64,000 nucleotides of DNA from Romeriopsis navalis LEGE 11480 (GCF_015207035.1 NZ_JADEXQ010000014.1:1-64000), one strand, 5' to 3'; positions 27,307 to 48,968 are shown, counted from the stretch's first letter. The notes: generated by a model not told the origin, from the letters alone. Numbers and translations are program-made.

Positions 27307-27331
27307 TACGGCCGATCTGATAGGAAATCAA

Positions 27332-28018
27332 TTAGCTTGGTTTAACACCGATCGTGGCGAGGCACATCCATTTTGACCATCCAGTGCCATAGTCAAATGA
27401 CTTTACGGCTTCAAGTCCGACGGCTTGCAGGAAAGCGTCCAGTTGGTGGGAGGTGTATCCTCGATTTTGCCAACGTAAGGACATGAGGACTTGCCCCAGT
27501 CCTTTGCGAGTTACTGAGCCGATCAAAGGTGCACCCGGTTTTAGAACTCGGATCATTTCACGCAACGTTGCTACGGGGTCGGCCATGTACTCCAAAACAT
27601 GGGCAAATATAACCACGTCGAAAGACGCATCGGCAAAGGGTAAGCGCCTGATATCTCCCCGTCTTAAATCGAGCGTCGCGCAGCGATGTTCCAGAAGCTG
27701 TTGCGCCTGGGCCAACATCGGGTCGGAAATATCGACGCCGGAGATATGGGCTGGCTGATCGATACTGTCTAAAAGTGCCAGGCTGAAGGCTCCTGTGCCG
27801 ACCCCACAGTCGAGAATTTGCGACGTCTGGTCAAGATGACTTAAGCAGGTCCGCAGGGCCTGACTGTTGAACAGCAGTTGATAATCGTGGAGCTGACCTA
27901 GGCGGGCTAAATTGTCCTGCCATTGATGGGCCGACGCATCGTAGATTGAGCGAAGGGTATCGATGCTGGGAGCGTTTCTCCAGGGGGCTAATGTGGGGAT
28001 TGTTGGATTTAATTGCAT
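27332..28018 (-). CDS. Class I SAM-dependent methyltransferase
   Basis: A 228-residue methyltransferase. Motif I is ILDCGVGTGAFSLALL, the acidic ligand to the ribose is in ISGVDISDPMLAQAQ, then DLRRGDIRRLPFADASFDVV and the post-motif AHVLEYMADPVATLREM. The closest broad group is the ubiquinone/menaquinone type (Methyltransf_11). The acceptor is unknown. It is the last gene of a leftward series with another methyltransferase about 240 bases upstream. Confidence 0.85.
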   Translation of the reverse strand: MQLNPTIPTLAPWRNAPSIDTLRSIYDASAHQWQDNLARLGQLHDYQLLFNSQALRTCLSHLDQTSQILDCGVGTGAFSLALLDSIDQPAHISGVDISDPMLAQAQQLLEHRCATLDLRRGDIRRLPFADASFDVVIFAHVLEYMADPVATLREMIRVLKPGAPLIGSVTRKGLGQVLMSLRWQNRGYTSHQLDAFLQAVGLEAVKSFDYGTGWSKWMCLATIGVKPS

Positions 28019-32569: not shown

Positions 32570-32764
32570 AGGCTCACCGAGCGCAGGCATGAATACATCA
32601 TCACGCTTCTAGCGATCGCTTGCAAAATAGTTACAGGTTAAATTCAGAGATTTTGCGAACGCGTTTAGAGATGCGGGTTGTCAGTCTCTTGATTAGGTGC
32701 TTGAACCGAAGTTCCGTGGGTTGTTGAATTATCTCAGCGTAAGTAGTCGCGGGATGTTAGGGCA

Positions 32765-33713: not shown

Positions 33714-33767
33714 CTGAAAACTATCCTGAATTTATCTCAACTATTCATTTTTGTATCTAATTACACT
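33714..33767 (+). promoter_or_regulatory. Direct-repeat promoter element, copy A
   Basis: Three CTGAA/CTCAA-type units start at 33714, 33726 and 33736. A TACACT -10-like box starts at 33762, 26 bases after the start of the last unit. The same arrangement and the following 25 bases recur at 47909-47980 before a paralogous gene. A palindrome, CTCAAAC-TT-GTTTGAG, lies upstream at 33672-33687. Confidence 0.6.
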
Positions 33768-33856
33768 GTTTTCAACAGCAATGAGCCGGTCGGAAACATG
33801 CTTTTTCTGCTTGTTGTTGATACTTCATACACACACAATTCTGACAAAGGAAGATC

Positions 33857-34798
33857 ATGAAACTTCAATTTCTACACAGTAGTCTGCGCATTGTCTTGAC
33901 TAGTACTGTGTTGCTTGCCACCGCAACCAGTGCAATGGGCCAATCACTACCGACTCAACGAGTTTCAGAACAAGAACCAAACAATCGCAGCACGAATCAG
34001 CGGATTACTCTTAAGAATACTCAGCAGACATCCTATACAGGTAGTGCTGGCAATAATGATGTAATGGATCACGTTCGCTTTTCGATCAGTGGGAGTCGAA
34101 ATAAAGCACAACGATACACAGTTGCCCTGAATGCCAGCGATCGAAGTGGTTACCGTGTCATCGTCTATGAAGACCAAAACAGTAATGGCATCGTAGAGCG
34201 TGGTGAACGTTCGATTGGCACACTTCAGGGTGGAACTAGTAGCCGCGAGTTTGATTTCATCCCGCGTAAGTCTTACATTCTGCGTGTTCAAAATCGCAGC
34301 GTACGGAAGCAAAATTATCGTGTTAACTTTATGCCAAAGAATACACCTAAGTTAACGCTCCAAGTCAGCATCTTAAATGGCCAAGCATTCTCTCAATTCG
34401 ATCCCAAGTTGCCCAGAAGCAATTCCTACAAGCCAGATTTCTATGTCAAGGTCAACTCCCCGATCGTCAGTGGCAAAACAGCAGAGCAAAAAAATAACGA
34501 TAAGCCGGTGTTCAATAAGACCTTCACAGGGACGAAAGAAGGTGGTCGTTTCTTGCTGAATGAAATTCCTATTCAGATTTCTATGTGGGACGCAGATTTG
34601 GGTAAAGATGATCAAGCCTATATCAGCCCCAATGGTGGTCGTAACCTGAATATCAAATATAATCCGGCTACTGGCAAGATTAGTGGTCCGAATGGTGTAC
34701 TTGGGAAGCAGGGAGAACGCATTATTGTTCGCGGCAATTCCCAGAAAAAGCGGGCTGGATTGGTATTTATGATCAATCACGCTGTGACTTATCGTTAG
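33857..34798 (+). CDS. Secreted protein with PPC-like domain, DxNxNG loop and C2-like domain (paralogue 1)
   Basis: A 313-residue exported protein. A signal peptide (1 to about 28, ending SAMG-Q) precedes a PPC-like beta-sandwich starting SEQEPNNRST. Inside it a 12-residue calcium-type loop runs from Asp106 to Glu117 (DQNSNGIVERGE). From about 165 a second domain begins LTLQVSILNGQAFSQFD and has YKPDFYVKVN, NNDKPVFNKTF and IQISMWDADLGKDDQAYISP, the layout of a C2 domain (divergent strands, DP-like loop, N-x-x-P-x-F-N). A Gly-rich end follows, with ISGPNGVLGKQGERIIVRG. Two paralogues lie at 44353 and 48054. Calcium-dependent surface or matrix binding is inferred; no known named family. Confidence 0.75.
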   Translation: MKLQFLHSSLRIVLTSTVLLATATSAMGQSLPTQRVSEQEPNNRSTNQRITLKNTQQTSYTGSAGNNDVMDHVRFSISGSRNKAQRYTVALNASDRSGYRVIVYEDQNSNGIVERGERSIGTLQGGTSSREFDFIPRKSYILRVQNRSVRKQNYRVNFMPKNTPKLTLQVSILNGQAFSQFDPKLPRSNSYKPDFYVKVNSPIVSGKTAEQKNNDKPVFNKTFTGTKEGGRFLLNEIPIQISMWDADLGKDDQAYISPNGGRNLNIKYNPATGKISGPNGVLGKQGERIIVRGNSQKKRAGLVFMINHAVTYR

Positions 34799-34881
34799 TC
34801 GTTACTTCCAAAATCAGCTAGATAATAAAGACTGTTTAGCTTCTCGATTCATATGTGTTGCTCACGGATAGGATGTTTTGT

Positions 34882-34928
34882 CAGTAGATACTTTGGAGTT
34901 ATTACTCATCAACCCAAAGTATCTACTG
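34882..34928. terminator. Long hairpin between convergent genes
   Basis: A perfect 15-bp inverted repeat (34882-34896 and 34914-34928) with a 17-base loop. It lies between the rightward secreted protein gene and the leftward haemagglutinin gene. No clear T-run follows on either strand, so it may stabilise or end both transcripts without being a classical terminator. Confidence 0.5.
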
Positions 34929-35002
34929 GCATTTGCGGCGGTGATCGAATAAGTACTGGGTTGACCAAGTAACCACCAGGCAGGCCTTGCATGAAATCTG
35001 GC

Positions 35003-38000
35003 TTAAGGCGATGCGGTACTTGCACTAGAACAATCGGAGGACTTGCTCCAGGTTGATTTCGCCTGATTTGCCATTGCCGTCAAATAAACTTGACCATTTG
35101 CATTACGTCGGAATCCTTGGGCTTCAACTATTGTTTTAACGTGAGGTTGTTGTGATGCGGTTGAATCAGTTACGGTTGTTCTGTTTGAGATCGAATTATC
35201 CCCCAATCGTATATCTTCCCAGGTTTTCAGCGGTGTGAGGGGACGCGTTGGGACAGTGGGAAGTCCCCCCCTTCCGGTTAAAACGAATTGGCTCCCTCGG
35301 GTGATACGGCAGAGGCTTTGGTTGATCAGATTGGCCCGATCGAGCAAATCATCCGGTAATCTCGCTGCTGCTTGGGTAGGGTCAACATCGAGCTGACTAA
35401 TACTGACACTGCCACTCAGAGTAGGGCTAGTCTGGGAAATCGCGGTGATGTCATTGCTGGTGAGCCGACTGGGATTGAGCTGGGATGGATCGCTGACTTG
35501 CAGTCGTTGCTCCAGTTCGAGGCGTGTCCTGGATTGGATACCGAATAGATTCAAGGCATTGATATTCACTTGACCACCAGCACCAGAGAAAGCATTAGCC
35601 GCAATATCGCTATTCTCGCCAGGAACGCTCACGATAAAGGGTACTTGAATATTGATACTCCCACCATTACCACCTAACTGTGCTGTTCCTGCTGTGGTAG
35701 AGATTCCAGAATTGCGTCTGAGAAGTAAAACCTGACTCAGATTGAGGAGAATATTGCCACCCGCATTACTGCGAGTTTCCGCCAAAAGTCGTCCATCATC
35801 CTGAAGTTTAACTGATGCAGCTTTGATCGCGAGTTGCCCTGCGATGTCTTTTCCCTGACTGCTCACCGAAATCCGACCACGGTCTTCCACAATGAGCTGC
35901 TCTGTCGCGAGCTGAATTGAACCACCTTTGCCAGAAGCCATCGGTGAGGTACTGGCCAGAATTGCACTATTAGGAATATCTGCCGATGTCGGCTTGCGAT
36001 TAGTACTTTTCCCCACAACCCGGATTCGCTCTTGACTATTGATTGATACGGTTCCAGCATTACCCTGATCGAAAGCCGATGTTTGGATTTGCCCGCCAGA
36101 TTTGAGATCGACCTGCGAACTATTAATCTGAATATTGCCACCTGCCCCTTGACTGAGTGTCACAGCATCAATAATTCCATCTTGTTCCACAATTAGACGT
36201 GGAGTTGTAATCTGAATATTTCCACCAGAGGATGACGTTACGCCAACTGTGCTGGCGGATATCCTGGCGCGCAACGGCGTCCGAGAAGTCGCACTTTGCG
36301 CTCTTCCTGTAAAGACCAGACGCGGGTCAAAACCCAAACCTAACCCCAAAATACGGACTTGTTCCTCTGTCTCGACAGCAATCTGACCGGCTGTCCCATC
36401 AGTATTGAAAATATCCGAACTAATTAATGCGCCATTGAGTATCGATAAAGTCTTTGCCTGAAGTCGAATATTACCAGCTCCCCTAGCAGCAGGAGACTCA
36501 AATTGCAGACCACCTGGCAGACCATTTGACCCAACAAATAGAGAAGCAATCGTACTAGGTGAACCACTTGAAGTTCCATCAAGTATAAAAGTATCGCGTG
36601 CTAATAGTGTTAAATCACCACTGATTCCACTACCGAGAATTTTTGAAGAGCTAATTGAAGCACCATTCATGATAGAGATATCATTTGCAGTGATGCTGAT
36701 CTTGCCACTACCGGATTGAGAAGTGAAGCTAAAAGTACCTGTCTGAATACTCGATAAACGATTTAGGCTTAATCGACCCATCAGTTCAATATTGATATCT
36801 CCAACCCGCCCGCTTCCATCATTCTTGGATTGAATCATGGCATCCTGGTCTAAATTAAGAGCTTGAGCAAAAATGTTCAAATTGCCTAGATCACTTTGAG
36901 CCGAGGATTCAACAGCTACACTAATCTCACCTGTTGGTGCATTTAGCCCCCTTACGGAATTAAGATCAATTGCATTACCGGCTTGGATACGAACATCATC
37001 AATTTTCCCCTGCCCGAGACTTTGAATCGATAAACTGGCATCGCCCAAGAGGGAAAGATTCCGAGATCTGAGAGTAGTTTTACCAATATTGCCATTGCCT
37101 TCTACATCAATCTTACGTAAGATGCCGCTTTTAAAAAAATCTGGATTTTCTAAAGGACGATTTTTTGCGGGTAGCCCAGTTACTGGGGCAGTAATAAATA
37201 TGGTATCGTTCTCACTTTTAAGAGAAACCTCACCAAGATTCCCCTTCCCCTGTAATTCTGTAATAATTCGGCTGATATTCGAGAGTGTAATATTCTGAGC
37301 GTTGATTTCGGTTTTTCCGGTAGAACCCTGCGCATTGAGCAGTATTGAGTTATTAATCAGTGCCCGATCGTCCAGTAAAACATCCCCTTGCGCGTCAATC
37401 ACAATCGCGCCACCTTGACTCGGAGGTGCCGCAGTATCCCCAATTGGATTGGGCAACGTAACGCTTTGAGCAAGACTGCCAATCGGTTCCTGTCTATTCG
37501 ATGGTCCTGAATCTTGACGCGGAGAACGAGCACGACTATCTGGTGGAGTTTCACTTCGCCCACTACGACCACCTGGGATCGTCATAGTATTTGCGACAAC
37601 TCCTGCAGAAATAATAGAATCATGCATTGTGAAGTTATTGGCCCGAATCAGGACATCACCGCCCCCATCGGATCGAACGTTGAGCTGAGCAGAATTATTC
37701 AACGTAATATCGGCCGGTGTCCCTTGGAGTGACATGATTTGAAACTGATTCCCGACCTGTTGCAAACCTAAAACACCATCGCCATTTATCCCACTCAATA
37801 TGACTTTTCCTCCTGGAACGGTGAGATTGCCACCATCTAACCGCACCGACGCACCCAACAGCGTCAAGCTCTGTCCCGGTGCTCCTGTAATATTTGGAGA
37901 TTGGTGAATGATGGCTCCTTGATTCGCTACAAAATTCAATGCTGATGGAGCGACCGTCAATAACGGCGGAGTAGGAGAACTCGTGCTCGTAAACTCACCT

Positions 38001-38503
38001 TGATTACCAAACTGAATACTATTCGCTGTTGTTGCCATAAATGAGCCGCGAACGTCCAGTTGAGCCATGGGACCGAAGATTATCCCTTGAGGATTGAGTA
38101 AAAATAGGTTGGCTGTACCATTCACACCTAGCGTTCCAGCGATATTGGAGGATTGATTACCAATAGTACGGGAGAAGATTGTCTGGATACCAGCAGGATT
38201 ATTGAAGTAGACTCTTTGTCCCGCACCGATGTTAAATTGCTGAAAGCTATGAAATAGATTGCTCCTACGCGATGCTCCACCTTCAATGATTAAAGCGGGT
38301 TGGCCATTAATAATACCTGAGGTATTTAAGCGGGAATTTTCAGCACCCCAATTTGTCGTAGGGATAATCTGAGCCACCGCAATACTCGGTATAAAACTAC
38401 TACCGACACCGAGAAAAAGGCCAATGATTAATCTTCTCCTTCGCACGTGGTGGAGAGGAATTGCATGCGATCGCCGCTGATCGTGAGAAGAATTGTGCAT
38501 CAT
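35003..38503 (-). CDS. Filamentous haemagglutinin-type exoprotein (TpsA)
   Basis: A protein of about 1166 residues. An N-terminal signal region with the hydrophobic core LIIGLFLGVGSSFIPSIAVA precedes the haemagglutination-activity (TPS) domain: TSGIINGQPALIIEGGASRR, FHSFQQFNIGAGQRVYFNNP, GTANLFLLNPQGIIFGP. The rest is a long parallel beta-helix of repeating strands such as LLNAQGSTGKTEINAQNITL, GNLNIFAQALNLDQ and GGNIQITTPRL. Such proteins are exported by a TpsB/Omp85-type channel and act in adhesion. No TpsB gene is in the window. Two cysteines occur near the C-terminus (QSLCRITRGS and SSDCSSAST), usual in cyanobacterial members. The start at ATG 38503 is chosen over an upstream frame because GAAGG precedes it. 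Confidence 0.9.
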   Translation of the reverse strand: MMHNSSHDQRRSHAIPLHHVRRRRLIIGLFLGVGSSFIPSIAVAQIIPTTNWGAENSRLNTSGIINGQPALIIEGGASRRSNLFHSFQQFNIGAGQRVYFNNPAGIQTIFSRTIGNQSSNIAGTLGVNGTANLFLLNPQGIIFGPMAQLDVRGSFMATTANSIQFGNQGEFTSTSSPTPPLLTVAPSALNFVANQGAIIHQSPNITGAPGQSLTLLGASVRLDGGNLTVPGGKVILSGINGDGVLGLQQVGNQFQIMSLQGTPADITLNNSAQLNVRSDGGGDVLIRANNFTMHDSIISAGVVANTMTIPGGRSGRSETPPDSRARSPRQDSGPSNRQEPIGSLAQSVTLPNPIGDTAAPPSQGGAIVIDAQGDVLLDDRALINNSILLNAQGSTGKTEINAQNITLSNISRIITELQGKGNLGEVSLKSENDTIFITAPVTGLPAKNRPLENPDFFKSGILRKIDVEGNGNIGKTTLRSRNLSLLGDASLSIQSLGQGKIDDVRIQAGNAIDLNSVRGLNAPTGEISVAVESSAQSDLGNLNIFAQALNLDQDAMIQSKNDGSGRVGDINIELMGRLSLNRLSSIQTGTFSFTSQSGSGKISITANDISIMNGASISSSKILGSGISGDLTLLARDTFILDGTSSGSPSTIASLFVGSNGLPGGLQFESPAARGAGNIRLQAKTLSILNGALISSDIFNTDGTAGQIAVETEEQVRILGLGLGFDPRLVFTGRAQSATSRTPLRARISASTVGVTSSSGGNIQITTPRLIVEQDGIIDAVTLSQGAGGNIQINSSQVDLKSGGQIQTSAFDQGNAGTVSINSQERIRVVGKSTNRKPTSADIPNSAILASTSPMASGKGGSIQLATEQLIVEDRGRISVSSQGKDIAGQLAIKAASVKLQDDGRLLAETRSNAGGNILLNLSQVLLLRRNSGISTTAGTAQLGGNGGSINIQVPFIVSVPGENSDIAANAFSGAGGQVNINALNLFGIQSRTRLELEQRLQVSDPSQLNPSRLTSNDITAISQTSPTLSGSVSISQLDVDPTQAAARLPDDLLDRANLINQSLCRITRGSQFVLTGRGGLPTVPTRPLTPLKTWEDIRLGDNSISNRTTVTDSTASQQPHVKTIVEAQGFRRNANGQVYLTAMANQAKSTWSKSSDCSSASTASP

Positions 38504-39200
38504 TGGCGTACCTTCAAGTATGGAACCAGGAAGCAAGCATATCTGACAATTGCACGTGGTTATCAAGCCATGGTGAATATTGTGTAACCCAGCCGTCATG
38601 TGCTTTATCGCTATGCATCATCGCTGATCTCAGCCGAGAAGTTCAAGTCAATGTAGTTGAAGTTTACAGTTTGATATTGATCAATGTTTTCACGCTCAGT
38701 TCTGAATATCCAAAAATTCCTCGATTAAAAATTCCTCAATATGCCTGAACTTTTAGAGATATTTTGCTCATAACTATCTACTTTAGGAATCAATGATGAT
38801 TATGCTTGATATTCATAAATCAAATCTGGAAATTTACTGAAAAAACAGCCAAAAAGCCAACAGTTTGACGACTGTCTAAGCCGTACATCGATTTCAGCGT
38901 CACATAAGATTGCAATTTTGATGTCACTGTAGTGCTGAGATGTACTACAGTGACCACTCAAGCCCGGCAATGCACAATGCCATATGACTGATGCATTGAG
39001 CCAAGCACCGATTTCATGTAACAACGACCTTGGCAAATATTCTTTAATCGCGAATGGTCAGTGACATAGTACATACCTGAATTATGCCGAGTATATCTCC
39101 TCAATTGAACTGAATTTCTCAGAAAGTATGGCTGACATGATGGTGATACCGATACGGCAAATCTTGTAGTTACTTCATCAATCGCCAGGACGATTCTGCC
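38504..39200. other. Long intergenic region with hairpin and repeat motif
   Basis: About 700 bases between divergent genes. A perfect 11-bp inverted repeat (38923-38933 and 38944-38954, arm GTCACTGTAGT) forms a hairpin. CTCAA and CTGAA units start at 39100 and 39110, with CATGAT 26 bases after the second (39136), the same geometry as the promoter elements at 33.7 and 47.9 kb. A further CTGAA lies at 39077. No gene is convincing here. Confidence 0.45.
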
Positions 39201-39449
39201 ATGAGTAAAATTCAGAGTTTAGTCAAAAAGTACTTGCCCCAGTCTTGGTCACAGGCATTGGAATCGGAGTCACGGACTTGGGTTGTGGAATGTTCTCACT
39301 GTTGTGCAGAGACATCTGTGTGGGAGATGGGTGGAATTCGCTATAAAGCATCAGGAAATCCGATGATGGCAATCCGCTGTAGTCGCTGCGGCCAAGTTTC
39401 GACGGGTCAGTTACATCAGCGGCCCACTCCAGAAAATGCCAATGCATAA
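39201..39449 (+). CDS. Small zinc-ribbon protein
   Basis: An 82-residue protein with two CxxC knuckles, VVECSHCCAETSVWEMGG and MAIRCSRCGQVSTGQLH, about 29 residues apart. They should hold one zinc ion in a zinc-ribbon fold. The stretch SVWEMGGIRYKASGNP between the knuckles resembles a small family found in many bacteria, function unknown. No signal peptide, so it is cytoplasmic, unlike most of its neighbours. It may be a nucleic-acid or protein-binding adaptor; that is only inference. Confidence 0.7.
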   Translation: MSKIQSLVKKYLPQSWSQALESESRTWVVECSHCCAETSVWEMGGIRYKASGNPMMAIRCSRCGQVSTGQLHQRPTPENANA

Positions 39450-39525
39450 GCCTTGGGGCAAATAATTCGTCGCTTTGAATTGTTATTCCAGTCCAAACAC
39501 ACGTCTCAAATACAAGGGAAATACG

Positions 39526-40458
39526 ATGTTGCATAGATTCAATCGATTTACGATCGCTGCTTTGATCCTGCTGCCGCTGTGGGGATGTGGGGGGATGAAT
39601 GTAACTAATATGCCGACTCAATCGACGACGGTTAATCGGACGATCGATGCCCCGGCGGATGCAATGCAGAATGGACGTTACCCGGTTGATAAGGCAAGCT
39701 ATGACGATGCAACTGGAACCTACACATTATCGCTACTGGATGTGCCAGCGGCAATGCCAGCTACCGTTACACTGCCAAGGTTGAAGATGGTGCGCTTAAC
39801 GGATTTCCAGATCAAAAATGGGAAGCAGAGCTATGTGAAGCTATTGAATGGCCGAGCAACGCTCTATCTACGAGATGACTTTCGGATTGCCTATACCCAT
39901 AATGTGACGCAGGTGCAAACTAACCCAGATACCGGTATTCAGGAAACGGTGATTATGCGACAGGAAGTCATTTCCTGGGCTCCTTTCTATGGTGTAATTT
40001 CTGGAACAAGAACAGGAAATATGGCCTTTATTCCGCAGTACTATGTACCGCCTGTTTATCAGCCTGGATTGGTGATGCTACATGGCTATGGTGGCTATGG
40101 TCGTACTTATAATATGGCTGTGACAAATTACCGCACTCGCTACAGTCAGCCACCTGTTGTCGAACGCAATCGGACACGATTTCGCCGCACAGGGCAATTG
40201 AAAAATGGACGTTTGCGCCGATCAAAAATTCGCGTTTTGTCAAATAAAACTGGTGAGCGCAGGACTGATCATCAACGGTCGAAAACTAGTTTGAGTCGGC
40301 AAAAACGATCGACGGGCTCAGGCTTTGGCAGTAATACACTTAAGCGGGATAAGGAGAACTCGATGAAACGCACATCTAATCGCCGCAAGCGTAGCTTTGG
40401 TAGCATGCGTACAAAAACTCACCGCTCCGGTGGATTTGGACGTAGCGGTCGTCGCTAG
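39526..40458 (+). CDS. Lipoprotein with basic Arg/Ser-rich tail
   Basis: A protein of about 310 residues. The N-terminus FTIAALILLPLWGCGGMN is a lipoprotein signal with the acylated Cys near residue 20. A middle domain of about 150 residues contains YTLSLLDVPAAMPATVTLPR and SWAPFYGVISGTRTG, followed by a Tyr/Gly-rich segment (HGYGGYGRTYNM). The last 90 residues are very basic and low in complexity (RRKRSFGSMRTKTHRSGG). This suggests a membrane-anchored protein whose tail binds a polyanion such as polysaccharide or nucleic acid. No family recognised. AAGGGA before ATG 39526 selects this start over one at 39475. Confidence 0.65.
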   Translation: MLHRFNRFTIAALILLPLWGCGGMNVTNMPTQSTTVNRTIDAPADAMQNGRYPVDKASYDDATGTYTLSLLDVPAAMPATVTLPRLKMVRLTDFQIKNGKQSYVKLLNGRATLYLRDDFRIAYTHNVTQVQTNPDTGIQETVIMRQEVISWAPFYGVISGTRTGNMAFIPQYYVPPVYQPGLVMLHGYGGYGRTYNMAVTNYRTRYSQPPVVERNRTRFRRTGQLKNGRLRRSKIRVLSNKTGERRTDHQRSKTSLSRQKRSTGSGFGSNTLKRDKENSMKRTSNRRKRSFGSMRTKTHRSGGFGRSGRR

Positions 40459-40508
40459 TATGCAAATATGTTTGCTTTAAATTTTGGCGGAGTCGTGGGT
40501 GAGGTTCT

Positions 40509-41228
40509 GTGAAGATGAATCAGAATATGCGTTTTTCGGCTTTAGTGTTAGCGGTATGGCTGAGCGTAAATCTAACTGGCTGTGTGGCAGCCCCTGTGAC
40601 TTATCACTATGATTTGGACTCAACCTCAGCTACCACTGATTGCATTCCCTTAGGAAAACTGGATGGAAAACTAGATGTGCATGTCATTCGAGGCAAACAG
40701 TGCCATCGGTTTCGGATTACTGACCATGTACCCAATGATCAGTACCTAGAGGTAAGTCAGGCGGCTGACCGGAGTTCTCTACTGAGTGTGACAATTGCCC
40801 AGCCACGTCTGGGAGGAAGCTATGACGCTGGTGATCGTGTGGGTTCTATGCAGCCTGGTCGTTGTTCGAGCAATAAGATACACCGTTTGACTGACCACCC
40901 AGAACCGGAGCGAGACTATTCTGTGGCGATCGTAGCCATTAGTTCGCTGCTGTGTGCAGGTGTTTTAATTTTTTTCTTCATCACACAGGGTATTAATACA
41001 TTTCAGTCTCTACCTAAACGCAAGCGAACCAGACGCTTCTTGCAGGAAAGGATGAGTCAACTATTTGCCAAGGAGCGATGGGCTGATGAACTTGTTCCAA
41101 TGCTCCTAGTGATGCTGTTACTGCTATTACTCGGAACAATTGGTATACAGCAAGCGCTGTTTAGTATTCGTTATTGGCAAATGAGTTCGGTGGATGCCTG
41201 CCGCTTGTTAGTCCGGAGTTGGTTTTAG
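40509..41228 (+). CDS. Lipoprotein-like membrane protein with two further helices
   Basis: About 239 residues. The N-terminus FSALVLAVWLSVNLTGCVAA fits a lipoprotein signal (lipobox NLTGC). A Cys-containing extracytoplasmic domain of about 110 residues follows, then a membrane helix (IVAISSLLCAGVLIFFFIT), a basic cytoplasmic loop (LPKRKRTRRFLQERM) and a second helix (MLLVMLLLLLLGTIGIQQAL). The combination of lipid anchor and two helices is uncommon. GAGG at 40501-40504 serves either GTG 40509 or ATG 40515. It follows the basic-tail lipoprotein gene by 50 bases and may be co-transcribed. Function unknown. Confidence 0.65.
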   Translation: MKMNQNMRFSALVLAVWLSVNLTGCVAAPVTYHYDLDSTSATTDCIPLGKLDGKLDVHVIRGKQCHRFRITDHVPNDQYLEVSQAADRSSLLSVTIAQPRLGGSYDAGDRVGSMQPGRCSSNKIHRLTDHPEPERDYSVAIVAISSLLCAGVLIFFFITQGINTFQSLPKRKRTRRFLQERMSQLFAKERWADELVPMLLVMLLLLLLGTIGIQQALFSIRYWQMSSVDACRLLVRSWF

Positions 41229-41340
41229 TGGTCTGCGAGTGGTGAATTAGTGCAATTTCAGCTTGAAGAAGCGATGGATAGCACTTGGAATCGGTTGAAA
41301 TAATTGACGATGCTTTGAAGTGAACTCGGAGTGAACTGCA

Positions 41341-41901
41341 ATGGAAAAAGTGAATTTTGATCCCCATATGCCTCAGGTCGATATTTGGCCTGATATGGAA
41401 AAGACATTTATATCAGCGCGCCAGGCCGCGAGCAATCCGGATAAACCAACTATGGCGATCGTCACTCCTGGCCATCGAATAGTTGTCCCTATCCCGGTTG
41501 GGAAAGCAACGTCTGATCAGAGACAGAGTAAGCGTTATGCTAACCTTCAGGAAATTATTTCTGGCTCAGCTAGTCAAAATATTAGCGTGATTGCGATGAC
41601 AGAAGTTGCGGCGGGTTTACAGGATAGGCTGACTCCTGATGCGCTGCCTTATACGGGGTCTCGGGCCATTCCATTTTTTGGCTATTTAATGGCGATCGGA
41701 TCGCTGGGTCACAGTATTCTTGTCTTCGAAGGACATTCATCAACCTTGAAAATGGGCTGTCGCGGTGCAGATGTATTGGTGGTTGATGGTGGGATGATTC
41801 CTTTTCTACAATCCGATTGGATCACTGTTTCTCGTTCCGTTATGCAGGGTGGACGAGAAATCATTGTGTTTCAACGTGATCAGAGGATTGAGAAACTGTA
41901 A
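41341..41901 (+). CDS. Hypothetical protein
   Basis: A 186-residue protein without signal peptide. It begins NFDPHMPQVDIWPDMEKTF and has a hydrophobic central part (AIPFFGYLMAIGSLGHSILV) followed by FEGHSSTLKMGCRGADVLVV and DGGMIPFLQSDW. The pattern of alternating strands suggests an alpha/beta fold. I do not recognise it. GGAG lies nine bases before the ATG, inside an AGTGAACT direct repeat with an 11-base period (41319 and 41330). Same direction as the two lipoprotein genes upstream. Confidence 0.6.
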   Translation: MEKVNFDPHMPQVDIWPDMEKTFISARQAASNPDKPTMAIVTPGHRIVVPIPVGKATSDQRQSKRYANLQEIISGSASQNISVIAMTEVAAGLQDRLTPDALPYTGSRAIPFFGYLMAIGSLGHSILVFEGHSSTLKMGCRGADVLVVDGGMIPFLQSDWITVSRSVMQGGREIIVFQRDQRIEKL

Positions 41902-42677
41902 CAGCCTTATTTATATACTAAGCATTCAACTGGTGGTGTTCTAGACGTATCTAAGTCTTATTATATGGGCAGTTCAAACTCAAATCGGTTGATAAACAGT
42001 CCGATGACTGTATCGTACAAGCACTCTGATTGAGAAAAGAAAATAGTTTTGCGGGCTAAGTGTTTAAATCCGAATTCTTCAGGTCAAATGCTTCTGTTCA
42101 ATCTGCTGTGTGTTGGCTTTATCATCGCAGTCGCAGTTGTTACAGAGAACGGGTTCCAGAACCATTGCGGACTCCCTCATGATAAACAACTGTTTGCATC
42201 ATGACTGATACACACGTCTAGAACTCCACTGGCTGATACTACTGGGGCAACGGCGAAGCTGCTGAGACTGACGAAAATTCCTACCAGATTAGGCAAGTTG
42301 ACAATGTGTATGGCAGCTCCGGAGCAGGCCTAGCAGGGCGATCAAAATTATCTGTTGCTCAGAATAATGACGTAAACGACGGATTTAGTTCAAGTAAATA
42401 GGCTACATGGTTACAGTTTGAAAAAAATATCAAGCAAAAATCGCCATAGTCCTTAACTTATCTGAATTTTTCAGCGTAGAAATATGCTGGTCCATCTGTG
42501 ATGAAATGACTTGAAAAGTATCGGGCCGTACGATCGAAAACCTGACTTTGCCCAGAACCATCTCCTGAATTTGCCTCAACTTTGAATCGAAGAAATCACC
42601 GATATTGAGAATCAACGAGGTGAACAACTACCTCCCCCAATCTACAACATAACCATTCATACTCTCAGGAGCTCACC
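41902..42677. other. Long intergenic region with a coding-like remnant and promoter element
   Basis: Nearly 780 bases without an intact gene. A frame at 42237-42401 reads YWGNGEAAETDENSYQIRQV and DNVYGSSGAGLAGRSKLSV before a TAG, and is closed upstream by TGA; it may be the tail of a lost gene. At 42565 and 42575 CTGAA and CTCAA units, exactly 10 bases apart, stand 26 bases before GATATT (42601). This repeats the geometry of the promoter elements at 33.7 and 47.9 kb and lies about 70 bases before the next gene. Confidence 0.4.
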
Positions 42678-43124
42678 ATGAAACGCGTCTCTTATGCGGT
42701 AATGACTGTTTTGATGACGGCCACAGTTCTGACTACAGGCTGTAATCTAACCAATCCGAAGGTTGCTGAATGCAATCGGCTGATCAAAGTGGCAAATACT
42801 GCAAAAACTAAAGCTAGCGCCCTGAATTTTATCGGGAAAACCTCTACTAATAAAACTCAAGTGGCGAAAAAGATGGTTGACTTGATGCGCAAATCTTCTA
42901 AAGAAATTAAAACCGTCAGCCTTAAAGATAGTAAGCTCCAACTTTTTCAGACTCGACTTGCGAGCATGTACTACAACACGAGTTCGATCAATAGCAGTAT
43001 GCTAAATGCGGCGCAACATCGTGATTTCCGTAGGATGACTAACTTATTTAAGAAAATGACAAAGCAGTTAAAGCAGGAACGGAAATTAGTCAAAGATATC
43101 AACAGCTACTGTCGTGCTAGTTAG
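42678..43124 (+). CDS. Small helical lipoprotein
   Basis: A 148-residue lipoprotein. The signal VMTVLMTATVLTTGCNLTN has a lipobox LTTGC with the acylated Cys at residue 22. The mature part is helical and Lys-rich: VAECNRLIKVANTAKTKASA, MVDLMRKSSKEIKTVSL, FKKMTKQLKQERKLVKDINS. Two cysteines at the ends of the helical domain (in AECNR and SYCRAS) could form a disulfide and clamp a helical bundle. I know similar short cyanobacterial lipoproteins but no function. AGGAG precedes the ATG. It has a candidate direct-repeat promoter and a strong terminator, so it is probably a single-gene unit. Confidence 0.72.
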   Translation: MKRVSYAVMTVLMTATVLTTGCNLTNPKVAECNRLIKVANTAKTKASALNFIGKTSTNKTQVAKKMVDLMRKSSKEIKTVSLKDSKLQLFQTRLASMYYNTSSINSSMLNAAQHRDFRRMTNLFKKMTKQLKQERKLVKDINSYCRAS

Positions 43125-43213
43125 ACTGGGCAGTTCTCAATTGGTGCTTGACTAGATTCGACTTCACGCCTCATCGTCAATCAATTTCAGTATTTTTCGC
43201 TGTGCTCTAATTC

Positions 43214-43255
43214 ATATTGCTGGCTGCCTCTCAGTTAAGCTGGCAATATTTTTTT
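43214..43255 (+). terminator. Rho-independent terminator
   Basis: A 12-bp stem with two wobble pairs (43214-43225 and 43238-43249) is followed by a run of T. It lies about 90 bases after the stop of the small lipoprotein gene. Confidence 0.8.
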
Positions 43256-43289
43256 GTGTTGTAACTGGCTACATACGATCTCGCCATCC

Positions 43290-43386
43290 CTGAATTAACC
43301 TCAATTCACCCAGCGATAGTCCTAAAAAAACGCAACTCAATTTCCTGAAAATACCTCAAATACTGCACTGACGAACTCTGCATACT
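43290..43386 (+). promoter_or_regulatory. Direct-repeat promoter element, two clusters
   Basis: CTGAA/CTCAA units start at 43290 and 43300 and again at 43336, 43345 and 43355. CATACT begins at 43381, 26 bases after the last unit start, matching the spacing at the other copies. The methyltransferase gene starts 83 bases later. Confidence 0.55.
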
Positions 43387-43468
43387 ACTAACAACAGCAA
43401 ACGTGCTGTGGATGCAATCACCCTTCGGCATTGTATCTAATACACAAACAAACCCTAAGGATAATGAC

Positions 43469-44248
43469 ATGGTTACTCAAACAACTACTTCCACGCAGCA
43501 TAGTCAGCTCGCTCGGATGGCAATTTTTGCCTATGGTGTCATGTGTTATGCCGTGTTCTTTCTGACCTTTAGCTATTTCTGTGGATTTGTGGGGAATTTC
43601 TTAGTCCCACGATCGATTGACTCTGCTCCCCTTGTTCCCTTGGGTAGTGCCGTAATGATTAACCTCGGTTTGATTGCTCTCTTTGGTGTGCAACATAGTG
43701 TGATGGCTCGGAAAGGCTTCAAGCGTTGGTGGACTCAGTTTGTGCCCAAGCCAATGGAGCGCAGCACCTATGTTTTGTTCTCTAGTCTGTGCCTGCTGAA
43801 TATGTTCTACTTTTGGCAGCCGATCGGCGGCAATATCTGGCATGTGACGAGTATGCCTGCTGTGGTGATTATGTACACCGTCTTTGCGATCGGTTGGCTG
43901 ACTGTCTTAGGCTCAAGTTTCTTACTCAATCACTTCGACCTGTTTGGTCTACGTCAAGTGTGGTTGTGTTTACGGGGTCAGGAATATACGCCGATGAAGT
44001 TTACAACCCCAATGCTTTATAAGTTTGTGCGTCATCCGCTTTACTGTGGTTTGCTTCTGGCTTTCTGGGTTACACCGCGTATGACCATGACGCATCTTGT
44101 CTTTGCAGTAGCAACAACGGCATATATTCTGCTGGGTAGCCGGTTTGAAGAAAAGGATTTGAAGCAGGAATTTGGTGAAGCCTATGCGGAATATCAACGT
44201 CGTGTGCCGATGTTGATTCCGATGATGAAGCCTCGTGGTGGCAATTAA
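43469..44248 (+). CDS. mddA: Membrane methyltransferase of the isoprenylcysteine methyltransferase/NnrU superfamily (MddA-like)
   Basis: A protein of about 259 residues with five or six membrane helices, for example MCYAVFFLTFSYFCGFVGNF and AVMINLGLIALFGVQHSVMA. It has the superfamily C-terminal motif YKFVRHPLYCGLLLAFWVTP and SRFEEKDLKQEFGEAYAEYQ, which bind S-adenosylmethionine. The GVQHSVMARKGFKRWW block and overall length fit methanethiol S-methyltransferase, which makes dimethyl sulfide. Related methyltransferases of this fold act on other thiols, so the symbol is a best guess. The frame opens at 43403, but the ATG at 43469, with AAGGA upstream, fits the family. Confidence 0.75.
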   Translation: MVTQTTTSTQHSQLARMAIFAYGVMCYAVFFLTFSYFCGFVGNFLVPRSIDSAPLVPLGSAVMINLGLIALFGVQHSVMARKGFKRWWTQFVPKPMERSTYVLFSSLCLLNMFYFWQPIGGNIWHVTSMPAVVIMYTVFAIGWLTVLGSSFLLNHFDLFGLRQVWLCLRGQEYTPMKFTTPMLYKFVRHPLYCGLLLAFWVTPRMTMTHLVFAVATTAYILLGSRFEEKDLKQEFGEAYAEYQRRVPMLIPMMKPRGGN

Positions 44249-44292
44249 GCCTCAACCGGTTCTCGTAGTTGATTGAATCATTCGCACTTTGG

Positions 44293-44323
44293 TTATGGGG
44301 GAGGACTTGCATATCTCCCATAA
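44293..44323. other. Hairpin before paralogue 2
   Basis: TTATGGGGGA (44293-44302) pairs with TCTCCCATAA (44314-44323) with one wobble. There is no T-run. It lies 30 bases before the ATG at 44353 and could be a weak terminator of the upstream gene or a leader structure. Confidence 0.35.
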
Positions 44324-44352
44324 CGCACTTTCCACCCTTTAGGCGCCGATCG

Positions 44353-45384
44353 ATGAAACACCAATGCTTCACCGCTGGTATCCAAATTATTACGACACTC
44401 ATCCTGTCCGCTGCTCCGGCGCTAGCAACCTCACGTCCGGGATTTGACTCCCTGAAACCTCAGACTTTGGTGATGGAGTCAGAACCAAATGACACCCGTG
44501 CTAGCCACATAAGCGATGTCTCTAACGAGCGGTTTTTCCGGTTCAACGGTAAAGTCGGTGGTGCGGATAGACAGGACATTCGTGCGGTCCGATTAGCCGA
44601 CTATGTCCGTCGCGATACTCCAGTTCAGCTTTGGCTAAGTAGTGGGCGTGAAAAGGTCTATGCGCGAGTATTTCGTGATACGAATGGTAATGGCACGATC
44701 GATGCGAGTGATACCGTCATCGCCCGATTTGGTGAGCGTGGAGCCGCGCAGCAAGTCGTGTTCCAGCGACAGCAATCATATTTGTTTGAGATTTATACCG
44801 CAAAGCGTCAACCAGTAAAGTCGCCGATTAAATATACCTTTGGCATCTCTCCGGTAAAGCCTTCGAGTAGTCGGGTGACGGTGACCGTGATCAACGCAAA
44901 GGCCCTGGGCACGTTTGATCGAAAACGATCTGGGCGGAGTTCCGATGATGCGGATTTCTACACTAAGGTTAATATCGGTACCTACATCACTGGTGATAGT
45001 CCAAAGACATTTCAGTACGCTAAAGGTCGAACGCGCACGATCGAAAATAATGATAATCCAGTCTTTAATCAATCATTTAGCTATCGGCACATTGGGAATC
45101 GATCGCGACTAATGAAGCCGGTTCTGGTTGAGTTCAGGCTAATGGATGCAGATGAAGGTTCAGATGATGCGGCCATATTGTCAGCTAAGTCACCGAGTTG
45201 CTTTGTGCGATACGACCCTGGCACGAATCGGGTTTATGACTTAGATGGCAAAGTCTTGGGGCAGGCTGGAGAAAATATTACGGTACGTGGTTGGATAAAC
45301 CCTCAAACCGATCGTGAAGAACCAATTAAAACTGCTGCCCTCACCTTTCGCATTGACTACACCTTCCAGAACACGAACTTTTAG
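44353..45384 (+). CDS. Secreted protein with PPC-like domain, DxNxNG loop and C2-like domain (paralogue 2)
   Basis: A 343-residue exported protein homologous in layout to the products at 33857 and 48054. A signal peptide ends near PALA-TSRPG. The PPC-like domain starts MESEPNDTRA, with a 12-residue calcium-type loop Asp109-Asp120 (DTNGNGTIDASD). The C2-like domain starts VTVTVINAKALGTFD and has DADFYTKVNIG, NNDNPVFNQSF and EFRLMDADEGSDDAAIL. The end has RVYDLDGKVLGQAGENITVR and a final strand ALTFRIDYTF. It is the longest of the three and lies directly before the PH-like and LCCL genes. The frame opens at 44269, but ATG 44353 gives the signal peptide. Function unknown; calcium binding is inferred from the loop. 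Confidence 0.75.
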   Translation: MKHQCFTAGIQIITTLILSAAPALATSRPGFDSLKPQTLVMESEPNDTRASHISDVSNERFFRFNGKVGGADRQDIRAVRLADYVRRDTPVQLWLSSGREKVYARVFRDTNGNGTIDASDTVIARFGERGAAQQVVFQRQQSYLFEIYTAKRQPVKSPIKYTFGISPVKPSSSRVTVTVINAKALGTFDRKRSGRSSDDADFYTKVNIGTYITGDSPKTFQYAKGRTRTIENNDNPVFNQSFSYRHIGNRSRLMKPVLVEFRLMDADEGSDDAAILSAKSPSCFVRYDPGTNRVYDLDGKVLGQAGENITVRGWINPQTDREEPIKTAALTFRIDYTFQNTNF

Positions 45385-45419
45385 CTGAATCAGCATTATG
45401 TGGCTAGAGGCATCAAATT

Positions 45420-46013
45420 ATGCAACAAACAATGACTGGCTTCGATGAATGGCATTTGTCTGCGGATCTGCGCCGCCGCATTGAGCAGGAACTGCAACCC
45501 GGTGAACCGATCGCATGGTTGGGGCAACCGATTCCCCGTTGGATGACGTTGGACTCGATCATCTTCGTTCTATTTGCGATTCCTTGGACCACTTTTGCGC
45601 TCTTTTGGATGTGGGCGGCCTTTGGGATGCAGATGCCGGATTTAGCGAATGGGATCAAGCCTAATTACATTATTGCGCTATTTGGGATTCCTTTTGTACT
45701 CATTGGGTTATTCATGCTTTCTAGCCCGATTTGGAAACGTCGGACATTGCGTCGCACGGTCTATTTGGTTACCGATCGACGGGCAATTATTATTCGTGGT
45801 GGCTTCTACATAACGATTCGGAGTTATGCACCGGAGCAGTTACAGGATGTTTATCGGCGGGAAAGACGGAGTGATATTGGGGATGTCATAATTGCCCAGC
45901 GGCAGATTCGCAATAGCAATAATTCCTATCGCACGGAGTTAATTGGTTTTTTAGGAATTGCTGATGCCCATGGTGCGGAGCAACGCATCAAGCGTCTGGC
46001 GGCAAAAGCGTAG
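45420..46013 (+). CDS. Membrane-anchored bacterial PH-domain protein
   Basis: A 197-residue protein. Two membrane helices (SIIFVLFAIPWTTFALFWMW and IALFGIPFVLIGLFMLSS) are followed by a bacterial pleckstrin-homology-like domain: RTVYLVTDRRAIIIRGGFYI, TIRSYAPEQLQDVYRRE and a closing GIADAHGAEQRIKRLAAKA helix. Proteins of this type are common in cyanobacteria; function is not established. It starts 35 bases after paralogue 2 and is followed 19 bases later by the LCCL gene, so these three genes are likely one transcript. Confidence 0.75.
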   Translation: MQQTMTGFDEWHLSADLRRRIEQELQPGEPIAWLGQPIPRWMTLDSIIFVLFAIPWTTFALFWMWAAFGMQMPDLANGIKPNYIIALFGIPFVLIGLFMLSSPIWKRRTLRRTVYLVTDRRAIIIRGGFYITIRSYAPEQLQDVYRRERRSDIGDVIIAQRQIRNSNNSYRTELIGFLGIADAHGAEQRIKRLAAKA

Positions 46014-46032
46014 AGATATTTGGAGGTGTACC

Positions 46033-46575
46033 GTGGGCAGAACCGTGAGTGATAAAAAAGTCCAGTATCAATTATTTTGGTATCTTTTGGTGCCAGCAGT
46101 GGTAACGCTGACAACGGCGAGCACGGCTCCTTGGTGGTGGCAATCATTGTTTCGTCCTGGCTACAGCTACAGTGAGACGGTGCAGTCGTCATCGATCGAG
46201 CCTACGCCAGCGTCATCTAGTATAAATAACACTGCATTGGATGCGGAACGTGGGGTGACTTCGATCGAGTGGGATACCAATCTGCATCATATGCAAATCC
46301 ACGACAGCGTTGGTCAGAAGTTTACGTTTAAGTGTGAAGGAAATGGCAGTCTCAACAATGCTATATGGGGAACCGTTACCTATAGCGGTGACAGTAGCAT
46401 TTGCAATGCTGCTGTGCATTCGGGCCAATTCAGTCGGAAGGATGGAGGCGTTGTACAGCTTCAGGTTACAGGTATGCAAACGTCTTTTATGGGGAGCCAA
46501 CGCTTTGGGGTGGTCAGCCGTGGATACGGGGCATTTTCTAGTTCATTTCGTTTTTTAGCCAAAGGTGAGCCATAA
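46033..46575 (+). CDS. Membrane-anchored LCCL-domain protein
   Basis: A 180-residue protein. A membrane helix near the N-terminus (LFWYLLVPAVVTLTTAS) and a Ser/Thr/Pro-rich spacer precede an LCCL domain of about 90 residues. Its hallmarks are KFTFKCEGNGSLNNAIWGTV, TYSGDSSICNAAVHSGQF, GGVVQLQVTG and a closing SQRFGVVSRGYG. Both conserved cysteines are present. LCCL domains are extracellular and common in eukaryotic proteins such as cochlin; bacterial cases are less common. Ligand unknown. GTG at 46033 preceded by GGAGG is the start; the frame is open further upstream inside the PH gene. Confidence 0.8.
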   Translation: MGRTVSDKKVQYQLFWYLLVPAVVTLTTASTAPWWWQSLFRPGYSYSETVQSSSIEPTPASSSINNTALDAERGVTSIEWDTNLHHMQIHDSVGQKFTFKCEGNGSLNNAIWGTVTYSGDSSICNAAVHSGQFSRKDGGVVQLQVTGMQTSFMGSQRFGVVSRGYGAFSSSFRFLAKGEP

Positions 46576-46649
46576 CGCAATACTCAAGTTGAATGTTTTT
46601 ATCCTGGGAGAGATGTTATTGGTTGATGTTGATTCTAATGAAATCCTTC

Positions 46650-46823
46650 TTATACTTTTTGCCCTTGTCGCGCCTTCATTTTTTGTTGCGGGCTGATGTG
46701 ATTAAAATAGTCATAGATGTGTTGAGCAAAACGTTGGTATTTATATTTATCCAATGTTTCTGGTAAGGCTTCAGATTGCTGATATAACCACTCTAACTAA
46801 TACTCCTTAATTCTTTTCAACAT
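46650..46823 (-). pseudogene. Short reading frame with an internal stop
   Basis: Minus-strand ATG at 46823 reads MLKRIKEY, meets TAG (46797-46799), then continues LEWLYQQSEALPETLDKYKY, QRFAQHIYDYFNHISPQQKM and KARQGQKV to TAA at 46650. The part after the stop is clearly protein-like. TAG is one change from CAG. It is a disrupted small gene or the remnant of a larger one; family not recognised. Confidence 0.4.
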
Positions 46824-46953
46824 ACGAGCATCTGACCTCAAGTGGGCTAGCGTAATACCCTATCTCAAATTGTTCTGGGTGATCAATACCACAGAGCACA
46901 GACAGATATGTGATAAAACTTACGGAGTGCAAGAGCTATTGAGGAAAAACAAA

Positions 46954-47493
46954 ATGCGCCCTCTTAAGAATCACCGCTGGTTGGGATTGACATTGGTAAT
47001 GGTATTGTCCGTTATTGTGGCAGCATCCACGGCTAAGGCTCCAGTGACGTTAGCACACGCGCACAAATCTAAAACTGCGGAGCAAATCGAACCTGAAAAA
47101 ATCAAGATTGTGCCTCAGCGAGAACGTGATAAAGCTCAGGAACTAAAAGTTAAAGGCCCCACTAAAACCCTTGGCATTACGTCCCTGACTAATCTCGGTG
47201 CAGTTGACCTGAGTGGAGAATTTAAGTCCCTTGATGGCTATACCTTACGGGCACGCGAAATTGTTGTTGCTCCTGGTGGGCAGGTCGCTGTCCACCAGCA
47301 TAATTCCCGCCCAGGTATTGCCTACATCATTGAGGGCGAAATGGTGGAGTATCGCAATGATCAAGATGACCCAATTGTTCGTAAAGCCGGGTCCGTAGCC
47401 TTTGAAAGAACTGGTGTGGTGCACTGGTGGAAAAATCAAAGTTCAAAACCAGCACGTGCACTGGTGGTCGATATTGTACCCAAGCAAAAGTAA
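46954..47493 (+). CDS. Exported or membrane-anchored cupin protein
   Basis: A protein of about 179 residues. An N-terminal hydrophobic segment (LGLTLVMVLSVIVAASTAKA) is a signal peptide or anchor. A Lys/Glu-rich spacer precedes a single cupin domain: LRAREIVVAPGGQVAVHQHN with two metal-binding His, RPGIAYIIEGEMVEYRN with the Glu, and GVVHWWKNQSSKPARALVVD with the last His. A metal site is therefore likely; the reaction or ligand is unknown. GAGG thirteen bases before ATG 46954 supports this start over one at 46870. Confidence 0.78.
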   Translation: MRPLKNHRWLGLTLVMVLSVIVAASTAKAPVTLAHAHKSKTAEQIEPEKIKIVPQRERDKAQELKVKGPTKTLGITSLTNLGAVDLSGEFKSLDGYTLRAREIVVAPGGQVAVHQHNSRPGIAYIIEGEMVEYRNDQDDPIVRKAGSVAFERTGVVHWWKNQSSKPARALVVDIVPKQK

Positions 47494-47631
47494 TATATCG
47501 TCAGGAGATGGGCATGCGCGTGGCTATTGTAATTTGAGTGATTATGCCCATAGATATCTGGGCTGCCAGTCTCATTGACGGATACCTTATCTCCAGTCAT
47601 TACTCAAACCAGTATTGTCATTCTGATTACT

Positions 47632-47659
47632 CTCCCCACTATCATCAGTGGGGAGTTTT
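47632..47659 (+). terminator. Rho-independent terminator
   Basis: CTCCCCACT (47632-47640) pairs perfectly with AGTGGGGAG (47647-47655) around a 6-base loop and is followed by TTTT. It lies about 140 bases after the cupin gene. Confidence 0.85.
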
Positions 47660-47660
47660 G

Positions 47661-47687
47661 CTATATCGGTAGGACTAACCGATATAG
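47661..47687. other. Second perfect hairpin immediately after the terminator
   Basis: CTATATCGGT (47661-47670) and ACCGATATAG (47678-47687) form a perfect 10-bp stem with a 7-base loop, starting five bases after the preceding terminator stem. No T-run follows. Role unknown. Confidence 0.5.
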
Positions 47688-47896
47688 ATATTGTGGCTTT
47701 AATCTAAAGCAATTTGAATTTACCTTCCAAGAGGATATCAGACTAAATCAGCTGGAGGTCGCTACACATCATCGCTTCCTAAATATCCCAATAATTCTGG
47801 GGGTGAATGGGTAGACTTTCCCAGAACTGTTGGCTGGAGGCGGCTTAGCAACCCGGTGGAGCTGTATCAAGTCTCAACCTAGTTGGTATCAGACAC

Positions 47897-47961
47897 CTGA
47901 ATTAGTAACTGAATAAACCCTGAAATAACCTCAACTATGATCTTTTTCAACCTTTTACACT
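47897..47961 (+). promoter_or_regulatory. Direct-repeat promoter element, copy B
   Basis: CTGAA/CTCAA units start at 47897, 47909, 47920 and 47930. TACACT begins at 47956, 26 bases after the last unit start. From the -10-like box onward the sequence is nearly the same as at 33762 for 26 bases, and a CATACACACACAA stretch is also shared before both genes. Confidence 0.62.
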
Positions 47962-48053
47962 GTTTTCAACAGCAATGAGCAAAGCAGATAGCGCTTCTTG
48001 GCTGGCCGCTGCTGTTGATTCATACACACACAAATTCAAGGAACAATTTCACC

Positions 48054-48968
48054 ATGAAATCTCAACTAGCATTTGGTCTATTTGCCCTGAGCACGGTAAG
48101 CCTACTGCTCTCCAGCGCAACTGCAGCTCAGGCAGGACTTTCATTGAACGAAACAACAGATTTTACCCGCCAGCGTCCGAGCCAAGTAATTCGGACTCGT
48201 CTTGGCTCGAATATGATGAATGGCATGCTTAAGGGGAAAGACGATCGATCTGATTGGATTCGGATTGGTAGTGCGAGCCAAGTAAAGCAAATCAAACTCA
48301 ACCTGATCGGCAATGGGCTAAATCGTAGTCTATATCAAGATAACAATCGCAATGGTCGTTCTGATGCCGGTGATAAGCTGATTCCGTTTAATGGTAACGA
48401 AGTTGCCCTCGATGCTAGTAAGCAGTACCTACTTGCGATTACACGTTCTACGCCTAACTCCACAGCCGCTCGTAGCTATATCGTGCAACTCACAGGTTTC
48501 AAAGAGACATCTCGCTATGAAACCGTTAAAGTCTCCATCCTGCGCGCTAAAGCATTGAGCCGATTCGACACCAAAGTTCCTGGCTTAAAGAGCTATAAGG
48601 CTGACTTCGAGGCTTTCCTCAAAATGGATATTGAAGGCTCCCATGCGTCTGATAAAACGCGGTTGTTTAAGAATAATGATGATCCCCGGTTCAACCATAC
48701 TTATACAAGTCGTGTGCGAACAACCCAAAAGCGTATTCCGATTGAGTTGAGCCTGCGCGATCGAGATGGTGATGTCTTTGCTGGTGGTGCGCATGACCAA
48801 GCTGATATTAGTCCCACCCGCGATCGCCGACTTCAGCTCTCCTATGAGCCATCCACTGGCAAAGTCTTTGGCCCCACTGGTCGAGTGATTGGCAAGCGCA
48901 ATCAACAGATTACGGTAACTGGTAACTCTCGCAAGGATAACGCCAGCATTACCTTCAAGATTCACTAA
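48054..48968 (+). CDS. Secreted protein with DxNxNG loop and C2-like domain (paralogue 3)
   Basis: A 304-residue exported protein, third member of the set at 33857 and 44353. A signal peptide (GLFALSTVSLLLSSATAAQA) precedes a beta-rich domain without the usual EPN start but with the 12-residue loop Asp96-Asp107 (DNNRNGRSDAGD). The C2-like domain starts VKVSILRAKALSRFDTKVPG and has YKADFEAFLKM, NNDDPRFNHTY and IELSLRDRDGDVFAGG. The last part has KVFGPTGRVIGKRNQQITVT. It has the same promoter and leader design as paralogue 1, so these two are likely co-regulated. The ATG at 48054 is supported by signal peptide and AAGGAA upstream. A hairpin (48979-49012, 10-bp perfect stem) follows the stop. 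Confidence 0.75.
   Translation: MKSQLAFGLFALSTVSLLLSSATAAQAGLSLNETTDFTRQRPSQVIRTRLGSNMMNGMLKGKDDRSDWIRIGSASQVKQIKLNLIGNGLNRSLYQDNNRNGRSDAGDKLIPFNGNEVALDASKQYLLAITRSTPNSTAARSYIVQLTGFKETSRYETVKVSILRAKALSRFDTKVPGLKSYKADFEAFLKMDIEGSHASDKTRLFKNNDDPRFNHTYTSRVRTTQKRIPIELSLRDRDGDVFAGGAHDQADISPTRDRRLQLSYEPSTGKVFGPTGRVIGKRNQQITVTGNSRKDNASITFKIH

Follow-up and report, generated by a model that had tools for sequence, protein, structure and literature searches.

Direct-repeat operators and their activators

Operators composed of short direct repeats have been described for several families of bacterial activators. Here, we compare with them a repeat array from the cyanobacterium Romeriopsis navalis LEGE 11480, in which CTGAA/CTCAA units precede the genes of a secreted-protein cluster on contig C14 and recur in a second such cluster on contig C10. 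The window, by which we mean the whole stretch of 64,000 nucleotides analysed (NZ_JADEXQ010000014.1:1-64000), is the first 64 kb of C14 (80,667 bases); the genome comprises 6.47 Mb in 251 contigs.

Regulators of the SARP-LAL type are known mainly from the control of actinobacterial antibiotic clusters. Their operators, as studied for PimR of Streptomyces natalensis, contain two to three direct repeats, each about 7 bp long, that are bound cooperatively by at least two protomers; the heptamer repeats are reported to stand in 11-bp units and, in one PimR operator, in 10-bp units, and the main operator does not overlap the -35 region (PMC5930380). Canonical SARP boxes, as for AfsR, have 11-bp units with the 3' repeat 8 bp from the -10 box and a centre at -29.5, and SARPs carry an OmpR-type DNA-binding domain (PMC10936776).

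In cyanobacteria, the HLR1 sites of RpaB follow the pattern (G/T)TTACAWWNN(G/T)TTACAWW with a 10-bp period, activate from about 50-100 nt upstream and are found genome-wide (PMC11633204). Tandem direct repeats are also used by PhoB of Synechocystis (PMC11126600). MalT multimerises upon binding its inducer and then binds its boxes cooperatively (PMC4381067), and work cited by a further study (PMC8265627) reports directly repeated MalT sites at every mal promoter.

Repeat arrays at a fixed distance from the -10 box

The two secreted-protein clusters very probably form a cluster-restricted regulon with class II activation, a judgement made from sequence that does not extend to the identity of the regulator. 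It starts from five arrays in the window, all on the plus strand and scored by the start positions of their units, for which we use the consensus CTSAA. The first array has three units, CTGAA/CTGAA/CTCAA (33714..33740; starts 33714, 33726 and 33736), and is followed by the -10-like hexamer TACACT (33762..33767). At 39100..39124, CTCAA and CTGAA (39100, 39110) are followed by a degenerate CAGAA (39120) and by CATGAT (39136..39141). The pair CTGAA/CTCAA at 42565..42579 (42565, 42575) precedes GATATT (42601..42606), the three units CTCAA/CTGAA/CTCAA at 43336..43359 (43336, 43345, 43355) precede CATACT (43381..43386), and the four units at 47897..47934 (47897, 47909, 47920, 47930) precede TACACT (47956..47961). 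All five had been claimed in a preliminary description of this DNA and were recovered to the base, as was the distance of 26 bases between the start of the last unit (33736, 39110, 42575, 43355, 47930) and the hexamer, which is exact in five of five arrays if the last exact CTSAA is counted at 39100. Four of them (33714, 42565, 43336, 47897) also match the composite pattern introduced below. An extra upstream pair CTGAA/CTCAA (43290..43304, +; starts 43290 and 43300) has no -10 at 26 bases.

Between positions 33000 and 49000 there are eight CTSAA-N5-CTSAA pairs, where 0.27 would be expected from 500 second-order Markov simulations, and five composites with a -10-like NANNNT against an expectation of 0.018. 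Each hexamer of the window shares only four of six positions with TATAAT and is weak evidence alone, so that the support for these boxes comes from C10.

A second cluster as an independent test

The proximal units are spaced by a constant 10 bases and only the distal ones vary (9-12), which is why the two-unit core was chosen for genome searches. With two mismatches allowed, the pattern CCTGAAWTWNCCTCAA finds 84 sites in the whole genome against 29 for the reversed pattern, including a dense second group on C10. These C10 sites played no role in framing the original claim, unlike those of the window, and hence serve as a held-out test. At least eight further sites on C10 show the same 10-bp repeat (CCTGAAWTWN-CCTSAAWT) and the same distance of 26 bases, with hexamers at 4710 (CATACT), 15941 (CATACT), 16093 (TATGAT), 20563 (CATACT), 21103 (TAGGCT), 35905 (TATAAT), 43338 (TAAGTT) and 50676 (TATACT). 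The -10 boxes on this contig (CATACT, TATACT, TATAAT) are better than those in the window. NANNNT stands at offset 26 in 10 of 15 C10 unit pairs against a background of 6.5% (p ~3e-9), and in 8 of 12 when overlapping registers are dropped (p ~1e-7). Pooling both clusters, offset 26 is occupied at 15 of 22 sites, while every other offset from 10 to 45 reaches at most 5 of 22.

Across the 6.47 Mb, with three mismatches or fewer allowed, 12 places match the composite CCTGAAWTWNCCTSAAWT-N19-YATACT, and every one of them is on C10 or C14, which together make up 2.8% of the genome. As this pattern was refined on the cluster sites themselves, its value lies in having no matches elsewhere and not in the match count. 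The reversed composite gives no match in the whole genome at the same tolerance, and the composite with 18 instead of 19 N gives a single unrelated one elsewhere in the genome. A strict three-unit pattern has no match genome-wide.

The genome-wide figures stem from mismatch-tolerant pattern searches; a matrix was run over C10, C14 and 165 kb of the organism's own DNA picked for weak matches. In these 165 kb outside the clusters the best scores were 21.0 and 19.2, compared to 29-37 for the training sites. The top operator-like site found outside both clusters lies on contig C64 (31157-31198, score 21.0), with TATGGT at 26. Weaker additional sites also came out of the matrix scan, the highest-scoring ones at promoters of the clusters, such as those of the C10 lipoprotein gene 27459 and the C2 gene 35476. 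Such C10 candidates, scoring 21-27, lie at 27511 and 50823 (-10 positions), 35785 and 19827; among them are second promoters in tandem arrangement ahead of a lipoprotein gene and of a C2 gene. The idea of a local regulon for the surface cluster, put forward for the window, is thus strongly supported by a motif that is confined to two secreted-protein clusters and holds a fixed distance to the -10 box, and the original observation proves stronger than it was first put.

Anatomy of the motif and probable promoter class

An alignment of 14 sites, one of them in the wrong register, reveals a true 10-bp direct repeat, T-CCTGAAWTWA-CCTSAAWT, followed by a YATACT-like -10. Conservation extends to positions that had no part in the selection of the sites, and no -35 hexamer is present in the 14 aligned sites. 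Several arrays carry further upstream units, 9-12 bp apart. There are 21 bp between the last unit and the -10 box, and the unit extends to about the first bases of the -35 position; with transcription assumed to begin about 12 nt downstream of the hexamer's first base, the centre of the two-unit core falls near -41. Class II activator-dependent promoters have an operator that keeps a fixed distance from the -10 box and is centred near -41.5, which is the arrangement seen here.

The operator would accordingly consist of two to four units of a repeat of about 10 bp, whose two-unit core takes the place of a -35 element. We infer that one activator binds it, with one protomer per unit and neighbouring protomers lined up along the same face of the helix, and that it would activate by contacting RNA polymerase from the class II position. 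Joint switching-on may then comprise the C2-domain secreted proteins, lipoproteins and accessory genes, and possibly the haemagglutinin-like exoproteins.

The fixed distance and the conserved YATACT-like hexamers would also suit a promoter without any activator, in which an alternative sigma factor would recognise the proximal unit as its -35 element and the units further upstream would be incidental. This is very unlikely: the distal unit is conserved at least as well as the proximal one, the spacer would measure 19-20 bp, and some arrays have three or four units.

Could the repeats be remnants of a mobile element or of a promoter duplication, with no regulatory role? The promoter regions of the arrays at 33714 and 47897 (-10 boxes 33762 and 47956) are 74% identical over 118 bp, and the C10 boxes 16098 and 50671 share 32 bp at 91% identity. 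The remaining promoter flanks average 28% identity, which is chance level and thus argues against one copied element, yet units and the 26-nt distance are kept in them. Moreover, the sites stand before different gene families. We regard such remnants as a highly improbable account.

Genes behind the proposed operators

The preliminary description had placed two secreted paralogues, a zinc-ribbon protein, a lipoprotein and an MddA-like enzyme downstream of the arrays, and all of these were found again. The first array precedes a secreted C2-domain protein of 313 aa (33857..34798, +; Pfam PF00168, E 2.6e-5), and the last its paralogue, a third secreted C2-family protein identified by alignment (48054..48968, +), whose ATG lies inside an open reading frame (ORF) listed from 48015. 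An 85-aa ORF (47975-48232) in another frame overlaps the start of this C2 gene just past the predicted transcription start and is probably spurious. Downstream of the second array lies a zinc-ribbon-like ORF of 82 aa with a CxxC...CxxC pattern in its sequence (39201..39449, +), for which family searches gave no significant family. The third array precedes a lipoprotein-like protein of 148 aa (42678..43124, +) with 39-47% identity to two C10 proteins (27010-27459 and 50915-51355), both of which carry the operator as well. The fourth stands before MddA, a methanethiol S-methyltransferase (43403..44248, +; NF045656, 345 bits, cut-off 270). Its start is likely the ATG at 43469, since 43403 lies only about 10 nt past the predicted transcription start. 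A second C2 protein, recognised by its C2 match, follows MddA (44269-45384, +).

On C10, sites precede genes for a 906-aa exported protein, a SARP-LAL-like regulator, a C2 protein, a PH-domain protein, a DUF928 exported protein and two lipoproteins of the 42678 family. One further site lies 434 nt upstream of the first of several consecutive C2 genes, and a weaker site stands between it and that gene. Common to both clusters are the C2-domain secreted proteins, the small lipoprotein and the haemagglutinin-like exoproteins; the operator is also found before products that are not exported, namely MddA, the zinc-ribbon ORF, the PH-domain protein and the SARP-like regulator. NRPS genes whose products include formyltransferase and TubC docking domains (C10 60474-79514) adjoin the C10 cluster and have no strong operator.

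The C2 secreted family has 17 members found in this genome, all on C10 (27722-35476 and 8496-11766) and C14 (window 33857, 44269 and 48015, with its ATG at 48054), many of them in tandem. Only a few scattered, distant members occur in 390 genomes of the class, so that, by whole-genome searches, this genome alone of those covered shows the expansion.

The window encodes one and C10 three TPS haemagglutinin-like exoproteins, with 43-57% identity among the four. At 136-202 bp upstream of each gene's start, a CTSAA pair lies on the strand opposite to the gene (window 38735; C10 35946, 16134 and 50635). The window pair, a weaker CTCAA/CTGAA (38735..38749, +), lies divergently upstream of the exoprotein gene at 35003-38599 and has no good -10. 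These boxes may serve both directions; by eye, no conserved -10 was seen on the exoprotein strand.

Candidate readers of the operator

Since every copy of the strict composite falls within the two clusters, a dedicated regulator is likely. Our tentative choice for the most likely reader is the SARP-LAL-like protein encoded on C10 (12597-15788, -). It comprises BTAD and AAA_16 domains, with no LuxR-type helix-turn-helix detected, and its SARP-like N-terminus (residues 6-242) matches AfsR (8hvr) with E 3e-7. No other array is as rich as the one upstream of its gene, where boxes at 16134, 16025, 16015 and 15982 are joined by two -10s. Perhaps, then, this protein activates its own gene together with a surface and secretome programme that is specific to the lineage and spread over two loci, and does so from a class II position that departs from the canonical SARP mode.

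Several points weigh against this picture. The geometry departs from that of canonical SARPs, with 10-bp units, 21 bp to the -10 and a centre near -41. CTSAA-type repeats are absent near SARP orthologues in relatives, where the two closest orthologues are 53-57% identical over the first 420 residues and show a similar recognition helix in alignments. Two points weigh against the regulon as such. No second genome with the motif was found: among 58 relatives, the matches listed were chance-like and formed no cluster-like group, so there is no phylogenetic footprint. Furthermore, some promoters are paralogous, namely part of 16098/50671 and the pair 33762/47956, a duplication whose two members are not independent sites. 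A contig scan with the C10 SARP-like protein found no relative, and a search of a collection of papers for SARP/BTAD regulators in cyanobacteria found no study.

The regulator closest to the window cluster is a MalT-like STAND/LuxR protein (29807..32590, -; TPR_MalT E 5.8e-63, GerE E 1.2e-13), which scores 452 bits and thus below the NCBIfam MalT-family cut-off of 537. The same regulon read by this protein is an unlikely alternative, although cooperative multimeric binding would suit two to four direct repeats near the -35 position. It is also as lineage-specific as the regulon: at E <=1e-100 it occurs in 2 of 58 genomes searched, its own included, and its closest proteins are from Chloroflexi (49-51%), which suggests that the gene was probably acquired horizontally. 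Its gene, though, has no box upstream and is not on C10, and two loci of relatives that were read contain no repeats except chance-like pairs.

An OmpR/PhoB-type activator had been proposed on account of the 10-11-base period. The period is indeed there, but it is shared with other families and not diagnostic. Such an activator is plausible, as the repeat format is near that of HLR1 (PMC11633204) and as tandem direct repeats serve PhoB in Synechocystis (PMC11126600); 17 OmpR-type DNA-binding domains (PF00486) were detected in the genome. None of the 17 sits on C10 or C14, however, and the strict operator occurs nowhere else, a distribution more in keeping with a dedicated regulator encoded nearby. 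A two-component response regulator of this family encoded elsewhere is a somewhat unlikely reader. Overall, the SARP-like and the MalT-like protein, both linked and both suited to an operator of direct repeats, are candidate activators, as is an unlinked response regulator.

The analysis defines a secretome regulon from sequence, with promoters, an exact geometry and candidate regulators, and with the second cluster as an independent test. Anonymous families, namely the 17-copy C2 proteins, the small lipoproteins, the haemagglutinin-like exoproteins and MddA, would thereby come under a single control circuit. Should the box be read by the SARP-LAL-like or the MalT-like protein, a cyanobacterial target of a STAND activator would also be identified.

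Comparison with known systems

The operator and its regulon are new, though of a known kind. With HLR1 the operator shares its layout of two hexamers, each with WW and separated by two free bases at a 10-bp period (KTTACAWWNNKTTACAWW vs CCTGAAWTWNCCTSAAWT). The core is another one, and the operator here sits at -41 and is local, whereas HLR1 lies about 50-100 nt upstream and is genome-wide. The MalT boxes of enterobacteria, short asymmetric units in direct repeat that a STAND regulator binds cooperatively, resemble it, and a MalT-like gene adjoins the window cluster. The sequence of the MalT box differs from the operator, and there is no box at the MalT-like gene here.

With the AfsR/SARP boxes it has in common direct repeats that would be bound side by side near a weak -35, and the C10 protein matches AfsR. 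The geometry of the SARP-LAL subtype appears to fit the operator better than that of canonical SARPs: units of 10 bp are found here too, and the C10 protein has the BTAD and AAA_16 architecture. The differences are the unit itself, CCTGAAW as opposed to CGGCAAG in the PimR operators, and the range of targets, many in two clusters here in contrast to one target gene there.

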